Shown: positions 18,464-22,306 of the stretch, in pieces
Position numbering within the stretch: position 1 is the stretch's first letter
How the letters are laid out: each line of letters begins with the position of its first letter
DNA from: Bacillota bacterium
GTDB taxonomy: Bacteria > Bacillota > Sulfobacillia > Sulfobacillales > Sulfobacillaceae
Length of the DNA stretch: 32,823 nucleotides
NCBI GenBank assembly: GCA_021797635.1
Contig: JAJZZI010000067.1
Span: forward strand, 1-32,823
Reading direction: 5' to 3'
Program-made: the position numbers and the translations under genes
The notes under the pieces: generated by a model
Databases searched by the model: none
Seen by the model: the letters and a program-made list of their open reading frames with translations, nothing else
Told to the model about the DNA's origin: nothing

Positions 18464-19813
18464 CTACGCTTCGGGAACGACGTGGTTTGCCTGCGGAACT
18501 TTCCCGGGGAAGCCAGACAGCGCAACGAAGCCTAAAAGTGCAGCCAAGGCAAGGAACAGGACATGCGCCCAGAGGCTCGATATCATGAGACTGACTAAAG
18601 CCGACGCCGTGATGCTGCCTACGTAGCGAAAGGTCGAAAAGATTCCTGAGGACGATCCCGCCATCGCCGGGCTCACCGCTTCCAACAGGGTGGCCTGCAT
18701 GGCCACATTGCCAATCCCGGCCCCGATGCCGGCCACGATTAGACCAGCGAGCAGGTAGCTCATGGTCGCGACATGGCTGAGGCCCACATACCAAAGGACA
18801 ACCCCGAGATCGAGACTAAAGGCGAGGGCGATGACTCTGCGAGCGCCGAACCGCCGGCCGATATGGCCGCCCATATACGACATTAAGGACATAGAGAGGG
18901 AAAAGATAAAGAGTAAGAGTCCGGTGGCCGATGTGCTAAGACCACGATGGCGAAGAAAGACTGGTATGTAAAGAAGGGTACTGTACATGAAAAAGTTGCT
19001 GGCCAAAACCGAGAGATTGGCACTGCGAAAGGGAGCTCGCCGAAAAAAGGAAAAGTGCACCACCGGATCCGCGGCCTTGCGTTCGGCGAGAACAAATCCG
19101 GCAAATAGGGCGCAAGCGAGGAGGGTGGCGCCCACCTCCAGGGAAGAAAAGGAAGCCGCCTGGTGAGGCACGGCGAGGGCCAACACGGTAAGGAAACTGG
19201 CTAAGGCTAAAGAACCCCAATAATCGATAGCACGCCTTGCCGCCGCCGGAGCTTGGGGAAGCCGCTTAGCGCCTAGGATAAGGGCGGTGGCGGCGAAGGG
19301 AAGGTTAATCCAAAACATGTACGTCCAGCCGCCGACATGAATCAGAGCGGCTCCCACGAGAGGGCCCACGGCTGCACCCATCCCCTGGATTAGGCCCATG
19401 CTGCCGAGCACACGGCGCAGCGCATCGCCTTGATAAAGCTGGCGTACCAGAGCCATTGCGCTCGGCACCACCAGCGCGCCGCCGACCGCCTGACCCGAAC
19501 GAAAACAGATCAAAGCGGTCAAATTCGGCAGTGAGGCGGCGAGCACGGACGACGTCAAGAATATGGCCAATCCTAGCAAAAGCAGGCGTCGGCGGCCAAA
19601 GAGGTCACCCAACTTTCCGGCAATCGGTTGCAGGGCCGCTTGCACGACGAGATAGGAGGTTACCACCCACACCACCGACGTTTCGGGGACCTTAAGGGCC
19701 GTTGCCATCGGCTCCAAACCGACCGCGATCATGGTCGAGTTGAGGGGCATTAGCACCACGGCTAGGATAATGGCGACTAGGGGCCAGGGTGAGGTCTTAG
19801 ACCTATCCATCAT
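18464..19813 (-). CDS. DHA2 (EmrB/QacA-type) MFS drug exporter
   Basis: LNSTMIAVGLEPMATALKVPETSVVWVVTSYLVVQAALQPIAGKLGDLFGRRRLLLLGLAIF...; start overlaps the upstream gene. Confidence 0.9.
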   Translation of the reverse strand: MMDRSKTSPWPLVAIILAVVLMPLNSTMIAVGLEPMATALKVPETSVVWVVTSYLVVQAALQPIAGKLGDLFGRRRLLLLGLAIFLTSSVLAASLPNLTALICFRSGQAVGGALVVPSAMALVRQLYQGDALRRVLGSMGLIQGMGAAVGPLVGAALIHVGGWTYMFWINLPFAATALILGAKRLPQAPAAARRAIDYWGSLALASFLTVLALAVPHQAASFSSLEVGATLLACALFAGFVLAERKAADPVVHFSFFRRAPFRSANLSVLASNFFMYSTLLYIPVFLRHRGLSTSATGLLLFIFSLSMSLMSYMGGHIGRRFGARRVIALAFSLDLGVVLWYVGLSHVATMSYLLAGLIVAGIGAGIGNVAMQATLLEAVSPAMAGSSSGIFSTFRYVGSITASALVSLMISSLWAHVLFLALAALLGFVALSGFPGKVPQANHVVPEA

Positions 19814-21443
19814 CGACGACGGCTATGCCCTTGGTGCCGTCAACCACCACCCGGTCTCCATCATGAAACACCCGAGTCGCCTCACGAGTACCCACAATGC
19901 ACGGCAAATGGTACTCGCGAGCAACCGTGGCAGCATGGGACAAGATGCCCCCGGTTTCGGTAATAACGGCCCCTACGGTGGCAAAGAGCCCTGTCCAGGC
20001 GGGAGCGGTATTGCGGCATACTAAGACGTCACCGGGCTTAATCTTGAAAAATTCTTCCGGTCCGCGGATGATGCGCGCCGGGCCCACGTGGCGCCCAGGT
20101 GATGCAGAAAACCCGCGCACTTCGCGCGTGGCTCCTTGAAGTCCTGGCGATCCCTCACCAAAGACCCGGGTGCCAATTAAATTTGGCTCGGGACTGTGCG
20201 CAAGACCCAATTGCGGAGGCGGGGTCCGGTCAAACTGAGCCGCAAGCTCGCGGCGGCGCGTTGCGATGAGATCGCGAGGATTTGATAGTTTTTCTCCGTC
20301 CAACGTTTCGAGCAATTCATCCAAATAAAAGAAGAAGATGTCTTGGGGAACCTCTATCACGCCACCATGGACCAGTAAGTCGCCAATCTTTAACAACAAG
20401 GTACGGCTTCGTGCGGGAAGCATGGCGTCAATGTAAAAATGATGATCCTCGTCAATGGACCAGGCTTCCAAGGCGTTTTGGTGGGCGAGCCTAAACGTGG
20501 CCTTCATGGTGGGATCCGCGATTTGCGCCAGGGCCTCGTCGACTTTGCGTTCTCGAGTCGCGACCACACTCTGCCAATGGGCATCAAAATCAAACTCCTG
20601 GTACAGATATCCTTTCAGCACGGTCAAGCAGTACTCGGGGTTCTCGCGCCAGGTTTCGTGTAAAAATTCGTGAACGTAGTGAGTTCGCCAACCATAGATG
20701 TCAAGATATTGACGCAAGGCTTGACGAAATTCTAGGGTCAAGGGATCTTTGAGCAAAGCGGGATAAACCTTGTCGGCGGAAAAGGCTAAAAGCACGTGAG
20801 CATTCGCCTTGGAAACGGTGGCCAACTGCCATAAGGCGCGATCCTGCTCAAGCGACTTATTCATCGTACCTAAGAGGAGGTCGTAAGCCTCGGCCGGATT
20901 TCTGTCGGGAAAGGCGGCGTGGTAAACTTGTTCGAAGCCGAGGCCGGCAGTGGCGCGCCCAAGCACCACGCGGAAATGCAAATCCCAAAATTTAAAATAG
21001 ATGGCTTGCAGGCGAGTCAATGCGCCAATCGCGTCAGAGAAGGTTTGTATGCCATCGCTTAACTGATCAATTTCATGATGAAGGGGCCACAGCTCTTCTT
21101 CCACGATCGTTTGAAATACCGCGTGCTGGCGGCCCATCAAGGGCTCGAGTACGCGCTCATGGGCTTTCATGATGGCCTGAGGATCCCCTTCAGCCGGGAC
21201 CACCGCTTGGTAATAATAGCCGTCGTGGATCTTGCCGATGAATTGGCGCAAAGGCGCCTTTAGCGCACCCATGGCCAAACGCGTGCCCTCAGTCATCGCA
21301 GGCACCATGTAAGATGCGAATAGCGGACTTAGGGGATGGCCAAAATGCAGGCCATCTTGACTCCAAGAGTGAGTTTGAAGGTCCTTTGGCGATAGCGTGA
21401 GTTCGGCTTGCATTGAGCTTTTGCCTTCATTGCTTCGACTCAT
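19803..21443 (-). CDS. PEP-utilising dikinase C-terminal subunit: central helical region plus swivelling phosphohistidine domain (PEP synthase / rifampin phosphotransferase-like)
   Basis: C-terminal PGDVLVCRNTAPAWTGLFATVGAVITETGGILSHAATVAREYHLPCIVGT (phosphohistidine motif); no ATP-grasp domain. Confidence 0.85.
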   Translation of the reverse strand: MSRSNEGKSSMQAELTLSPKDLQTHSWSQDGLHFGHPLSPLFASYMVPAMTEGTRLAMGALKAPLRQFIGKIHDGYYYQAVVPAEGDPQAIMKAHERVLEPLMGRQHAVFQTIVEEELWPLHHEIDQLSDGIQTFSDAIGALTRLQAIYFKFWDLHFRVVLGRATAGLGFEQVYHAAFPDRNPAEAYDLLLGTMNKSLEQDRALWQLATVSKANAHVLLAFSADKVYPALLKDPLTLEFRQALRQYLDIYGWRTHYVHEFLHETWRENPEYCLTVLKGYLYQEFDFDAHWQSVVATRERKVDEALAQIADPTMKATFRLAHQNALEAWSIDEDHHFYIDAMLPARSRTLLLKIGDLLVHGGVIEVPQDIFFFYLDELLETLDGEKLSNPRDLIATRRRELAAQFDRTPPPQLGLAHSPEPNLIGTRVFGEGSPGLQGATREVRGFSASPGRHVGPARIIRGPEEFFKIKPGDVLVCRNTAPAWTGLFATVGAVITETGGILSHAATVAREYHLPCIVGTREATRVFHDGDRVVVDGTKGIAVVDDG

Positions 21444-22306
21444 GCGTGCATCACTCCTTTAAGCGCTATGGGGCGCATTTGTAAACAGTACAGGCTGTCC
21501 TCGGCGATGGCCCATTCCACATCGACGGGATATCCCGCCAATCGTTCCAAGGCCAGCGTCAGGTGATGCACTCGAATCACGTCGCGATCGCTCAAACAAA
21601 AGCGCGTGCGCAGCTCTTCGGAGGTTTCCACCTCCTCGGTGCCTCCTTCTGGTCGCAGGCGAAGCATCGCCTCCTTGTCTCCCAAAAGCCCCTCGATCCG
21701 GGAGGTAGCTTTATCGACGATGAAGGTGTCGGGGGTGACCATGCCGGAAACCACGGACTCACCCAGCCCATAAGCGGCATTGATGACGACCTCATCCGCA
21801 CCGCTGACCGGGTGCAAGCTGAAACTTACTCCAGCGGTTTCGGCGGGAACCAGGGCCTGCACGATGACGCCCATGGAGCTCTTTTCCAGTGAAAGGCCAT
21901 GCTGGGCGGCATAGGAGTGCGCATGATGGTTGGCCGCCGATGCCCAGCAGCGAAAAATAGCGGGCATGACCTCCTCAGCACCCACGTCCAGCACCGTATC
22001 ATATTGTCCGGCAAACGAGGCCGAAGCCAGATCTTCGAAGGTGGCCGAGGATCGCACGGCAAAGCGGGTAGTTGGGGCGAAAGCGGATAACGCCTGACGC
22101 ACCTCCTCGTTGAGATCGCCTGGGATAGGACCGCTTGCTCCGCCATCTTGCAAGTAGGCCTGATGAGCGTGGGTGGTGACCACGAATCCGGGCGGAACGG
22201 CGACTTGGTGGTGAATCAGATACGTCAAAGAAGCGGCCTTCCCCCCGACTTCTTCGGGGCTCAGCGGCCCGTCTTGGAGCGTAACAACATACATAGCTCG
22301 TCTCAT
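21440..22306 (-). CDS. PEP synthase/PPDK-type ATP-binding (N-terminal) subunit encoded separately
   Basis: VGGKAASLTYLIHHQVAVPPGFVVTTHA; FAVRSSATFEDLASASFAGQYDTVLDV; AAYGLGESVVSGMVTPDTFIVDK; VDVEWAIAEDSLYCLQMRPI; ATGA overlap with the next gene. Confidence 0.9.
   Translation of the reverse strand: MRRAMYVVTLQDGPLSPEEVGGKAASLTYLIHHQVAVPPGFVVTTHAHQAYLQDGGASGPIPGDLNEEVRQALSAFAPTTRFAVRSSATFEDLASASFAGQYDTVLDVGAEEVMPAIFRCWASAANHHAHSYAAQHGLSLEKSSMGVIVQALVPAETAGVSFSLHPVSGADEVVINAAYGLGESVVSGMVTPDTFIVDKATSRIEGLLGDKEAMLRLRPEGGTEEVETSEELRTRFCLSDRDVIRVHHLTLALERLAGYPVDVEWAIAEDSLYCLQMRPIALKGVMHA

Follow-up and report, generated by a model that had tools for sequence, protein, structure and literature searches.

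A predicted two-subunit kinase of the YvkC/ZPH clade encoded together with an efflux-type transporter in Sulfobacillales

The kinase genes and an overlapping transporter gene

In the window, by which we mean the whole 32,823-nucleotide stretch of Sulfobacillaceae DNA analysed here, the ATP-grasp and phosphohistidine portions of a dikinase are encoded by separate, overlapping genes. This raises the question of whether the split is genuine and, if so, what such a kinase might act on. A first-pass annotation had described two open reading frames at 19803-22306 joined by an ATGA overlap, and the positions, the lengths and all of the motifs quoted were as described. Its assignment of an ATP-grasp half and a phosphohistidine half was confirmed by a Pfam HMM search, which found one PPDK_N and one PEP-utilizers domain. 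On the minus strand, the N subunit gene (21440-22306) encodes an ATP-grasp protein of 288 aa (PPDK_N, 2.6e-75), and the C subunit gene (19803-21443) a substrate/phosphohistidine-swivel protein of 546 aa (PEP-utilizers, 3.2e-24). The stop/start overlap, read as ATGA on the coding (minus) strand, lies at 21440-21443, and a 4-nt overlap is also present at loci L035, L036, L038, L041 and L042. The C gene is preceded by a Shine-Dalgarno-like sequence of its own, AAAGGAG, located inside the N gene ~10 nt 5' of the C-gene ATG. Homologs of the N subunit start at an in-frame MYVV..., which corresponds to residue 5 of the window protein.

A third gene on the same strand, absent from the first-pass annotation, was judged the most telling for function. 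It encodes a transporter of the major facilitator superfamily (MFS) of the drug:H+ antiporter type (18464-19813, 449 aa; MFS_1, 4e-61) and shares 11 nt with the end of the C gene. No regulator gene adjoins the window copy. Genes for FecCD, ABC and histidine-phosphatase proteins adjoin the trio solely in the window and in genomes G006 and G014, and were rejected as partners due to this limited adjacency.

The N, C and MFS genes occur together in 13 of the 42 Sulfobacillales genomes, that of the window included, and in two families. Among these copies, the C subunit is between 66% and ~37% identical to that of the window. The MAG Sulfobacillus acidophilus AMDSBA3, with 58% identity in this subunit, was the closest named relative found. 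The flanks of the trio vary, with common flanking genes among near relatives alone. A 14th copy, in the order N-C-MFS with a divergent TetR gene, was identified in another Bacillota family (G415, locus L107). In AMDSBA3 (L033), the gene order is C-N-MFS, and a single indel in a fused gene cannot explain a split of this kind. The swapped order and the separate reading frames in the 13 Sulfobacillales genomes and G415 rule out a sequencing or assembly error or a pseudogene, and speak against the artificially split gene that the first-pass annotation had asked to be checked. The split into two genes is thus real, as is the three-gene cassette, which is conserved and present in an acid-loving bacterium.

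Relatives of the two subunits

The N subunit carries the motifs G-x-KA, RSS-x-x-ED, SFAGQY, GLG, PD and LQxRP, which are kept across the clade. Neither a PPDK nor a PEP synthase was found in the window genome, which is 96% complete; unlike this genome, most of the related genomes searched harbour a PPDK-like protein of 880-900 aa.

The C subunit comprises a helical substrate-binding domain (residues ~1-440) and a phosphohistidine swivel domain (~445-540), and the ~440 residues before the swivel domain contain no Pfam domain. The catalytic His503 sits in the sequence TETGGILSH, which fits (T/S)xxGGxxxH, and the substrate-site motif DEDHHFYID is found at residues 331-339. In all copies, both halves have kept their catalytic motifs. 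An AlphaFold2 model of the C subunit made from two sequences had a mean pLDDT of 42, too low for the model to be of use.

Full-length profile matches were obtained between the C subunit and proteins resembling PpsA, CreH and HpeH. With PpsA from an Azoarcus plasmid, the HHalign alignment ran end to end (516 columns, E 1.9e-63). This PpsA was labeled from the adjoining annotated ppcABDG genes, a CBS-domain gene also lying beside it, and other plasmid genes were labeled CreH-like or HpeH-like from their gene context (P450 and aldehyde dehydrogenase; biotin carboxylase, respectively). A substrate-domain motif, E-[DN]-H-x-F-Y, is common to the window clade and these proteins. The plasmid collection contained no close relative of the C subunit, the best one being 27.5% identical over 95% of the subunit. 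The two-subunit dikinases PpsAB, CreHI and HpeHI, with ATP-grasp and substrate plus swivel domains on separate proteins as in the window, are already known, and this architecture phosphorylates phenols (PMC12167813). In HpeHI, the ATP subunit and the swivel subunit meet transiently, AMP is the main product, and mutation of the His is fatal to activity (PMC12167813).

In a tree of the C halves, the window clade consists of 22 rows (14 linked copies, 4 solitary C subunits and 4 fused proteins) with a support of 100/100. It stands apart both from the phenol kinases PpsA/CreH/HpeH, which form their own 100/100 clade, and from the rifampin phosphotransferase Rph, another 100/100 clade at a distance. 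The N-half tree was less resolved, but consistent with that of the C halves. The proposal of the first-pass annotation, that the two proteins form a dikinase comparable to phenylphosphate synthase and acting on a drug, a phenol or some other small molecule, is therefore upheld by the end-to-end PpsA alignment, the trees and the domains, and the phylogeny it called for placed the window clade as distinct from both Rph and phenylphosphate synthase. From these comparisons, we place the kinase in the YvkC/ZPH clade, as a member that consists of two subunits.

The solitary C subunits (L043 8973-10586, L044 4506-6107, L045 6252-7841 and L046 2413-4053) form a 100/100 group in the window clade; their catalytic His is intact and no N gene adjoins them. 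In L044, another MFS-type gene lies after the solitary C gene.

Of 37 genomes sampled from one genus, 26 encode the fused relative, a protein of 834-843 aa, and no copy was found in the plasmid collection at 1e-60. Next to the gene for this protein are uvrB and genes for a TetR protein and an MFS protein, the latter 37-39% identical to its counterpart in the window. This order, uvrB, kinase, TetR and MFS, is presumably that of the yvkC-yvkB-yvkA locus of B. subtilis. In addition, the fused relatives have an Asp and a His that precede the swivel His by exactly 168 and 165 residues, the same spacing as in the B. subtilis zearalenone phosphotransferase ZPH1101. Based on this gene order and residue spacing, we identify the fused relative as the putative Bacillus YvkC, and infer that ZPH1101 and YvkC are the same protein. 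A literature search on yvkA and yvkB gave nothing useful, and the name YvkC is not used in the paper on ZPH1101 (PMC11768653). In that study, activity was lost on changing D627, H630 or H795 (PMC11768653). These residues correspond to E332, H335 and H503 in the window, with Glu replacing D627 in the Sulfobacillus proteins. YvkC, as Hsu et al. 2023 is cited in PMC13099321 and PMC11124408, is a flavonoid phosphate synthetase with a broad flavonoid range that makes AMP and Pi. The window proteins share with YvkC/ZPH1101 the C-half clade, the domain content, the acidic-x-x-His and catalytic His residues and a homologous MFS gene nearby. On the other hand, the Bacillus enzyme is one chain and the enzymes of the window and G415 are two, and the TetR gene that lies between kinase and MFS in the Bacillus-type locus is missing from the window locus. 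The fused relative is ~32% (C) and ~37% (N) identical to the window proteins, and at this identity the substrate may differ.

The first-pass annotation had regarded the window genes as a normally single-chain enzyme that was secondarily split, and a fused reading frame in relatives as evidence against a two-subunit enzyme. Such fused frames do exist, yet they are nested within the split clade, as sister to the split G415 copy (99/98), which speaks against secondary splitting and makes fusion most simply the derived state. A constraint holding all split members (trio and solitary C) together, against the nested fused group, was not rejected (p-AU 0.152). Despite this value, the clades neighbouring the window clade are mostly split too, so that parsimony gives the same direction either way. 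The two-subunit form is probably ancestral in this clade, and the single-chain Bacillus enzyme a later fusion.

Proposed function and its alternatives

Concerning the transporter, the best NCBIfam model was EmrB/DHA2, with a score under its cut-off, and the nearest solved structures were the efflux pumps EfpA, an antiseptic-resistance (Qac-type) protein and EmrB. The antiporter motif GAAxGP is kept in all linked copies. In Sulfobacillales, all MFS homologs with at least 47% identity adjoin the kinase pair, and the four inspected homologs with 34-38% identity (L108-L111) had no dikinase gene in the stretch examined. In G036, an MFS gene product with 42% identity is encoded next to a C gene from outside the window clade (L053), indicating that this MFS type met dikinases more than once. 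Judging by transporter family, the MFS protein probably exports the compound.

The likeness to YvkC, ZPH1101 and HpeHI, combined with an efflux-type MFS protein, favours a system that phosphorylates a toxic compound of the phenol type and exports it. By analogy with the characterised relatives, dikinase chemistry and a phenolic class of substrate are most likely. The N protein would bind ATP and transfer the beta-phosphate to the C protein at His503 (ATP to AMP and Pi), and the swivel domain would carry the phosphate to a phenolic hydroxyl of the substrate held in the helical domain near E332 and H335. The substrate may be a flavonoid-like or polyketide-like xenobiotic or antibiotic, and the MFS protein would export either the compound or its phosphate ester. 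We consider it reasonably probable that the cassette as a whole is a phenol-type kinase coupled with MFS export for detoxification.

A gluconeogenic PEP synthase, or a PEP synthase or Rph gene broken by sequencing error or recent mutation, can be practically dismissed. The N half alone does have PEP synthase as its best NCBIfam match, and the N subunit is the sole PPDK_N protein found in the genome. PEP synthase (E. coli PpsA type) and PPDK have ATP-grasp and swivel domains homologous to those of the window, but also a C-terminal PEP/pyruvate TIM barrel and a regulatory Thr, both of which the window proteins lack: PPDK_N and PEP-utilizers were the only domains found, the PEP-synthase barrel was not matched in Pfam, and in GGILSH (Leu501-Ser502-His503) Leu stands at the Thr position. 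This domain content excludes a placement within gluconeogenic PEP synthase, an outcome that the first-pass annotation had named as fatal to its reading, and a broken gene was already refuted by the separate genes in 14 genomes and the order swapped once. Rph and RphT share the logic of ATP-grasp, substrate domain and His swivel with the window proteins, Rph was among the best solved-structure matches, and an efflux gene is consistent with resistance. However, they are single-chain enzymes in a distant clade, with a substrate domain that aligned in part (364 columns in HHalign) and in which EDHxFYID, or E-[DN]-H-x-F-Y, was not found. Scores for the NCBIfam Rph equivalog NF041857 (N 192 bits, C 112 bits) were far under the cut-off of 999 bits. 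Identity with Rph was thus ruled out by scores, domain alignment and trees, and a two-chain enzyme that functions as a rifamycin kinase alongside a rifamycin efflux pump is highly improbable.

The cassette might instead serve catabolic scavenging, the MFS protein importing a phenolic growth substrate that the kinase traps as its phosphate ester, a role suggested for HpeHI, CreHI and PpsAB. The best-characterised two-subunit dikinases are indeed catabolic (PMC12167813), and the plasmid relatives lie in aromatic-degradation clusters with phenylphosphate carboxylase, P450 and aldehyde dehydrogenase, or biotin carboxylase genes. Those examined have no adjoining MFS gene, and belong, as described above, to a clade separate from that of the window. 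No carboxylase, phosphatase, P450 or ring-cleavage gene consistently accompanies the trio, whose flanks differ between genomes, and its MFS protein resembles efflux pumps. We regard scavenging as unlikely. A biosynthetic role, in which the kinase activates an endogenous metabolite, either for a PigC/RedH-like condensation or towards a phosphorylated natural product, with secretion of the product by the MFS protein, would be compatible with an exporter, and PigC and RedH models matched both halves, although below cut-off. No recurrent biosynthetic genes were seen with the trio at the loci examined, and we find this role quite improbable.

We know of no biochemistry for split members of the window clade. 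Two-subunit dikinases and the single-chain YvkC had been described before. What is added here is a YvkC-clade kinase in two-subunit form, the conserved overlap of its genes with one for an efflux-type protein, and evidence of later fusion. The cassette links the phenol-catabolic two-subunit kinases to the single-chain resistance-type kinases, in that a putative detoxification-type kinase of this clade has retained two parts and is tied to an efflux-type pump, its Bacillus counterpart apparently being a later fusion. The proposed phenol kinase with export also provides a testable function and substrate class for genes that commonly carry the annotation PEP synthase or 'PEP-utilizing enzyme'.

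Numbers of N and C subunits and other kinase loci

The numbers of N and C halves differ in several draft assemblies. G006 and G014 each gave one PPDK_N match and three C-type genes, and as both are drafts, N genes may be missing. In G011, also a draft, a single free N half and a PPDK accompany two C halves, and in the draft assemblies of G034 and G040 the C-type genes appear to outnumber the N halves. This excess of C halves suggests a shared ATP subunit. We tentatively raise the possibility, itself rather doubtful, that several interchangeable swivel/substrate subunits draw on a single ATP-grasp subunit in a modular phosphorylate-and-export system. If so, the arrangement would be comparable to the sugar PTS with its shared EI/HPr, and new specificities could arise by duplicating the C subunit alone. 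One C-type gene in G006 (L052 377-1743) is broken by a stop and is apparently a pseudogene.

Outside the window clade, C-type dikinase subunits of another clade are encoded directly upstream of ABC transporter genes in L091 (3992-7863) and L092 (4760-8284), representing a second kinase-transporter pairing. In G001, a fused dikinase of 964 aa and a separate N/C pair lie within 10 kb of one another (L051 1177-10708), and a related cluster was found in G057 (L054).
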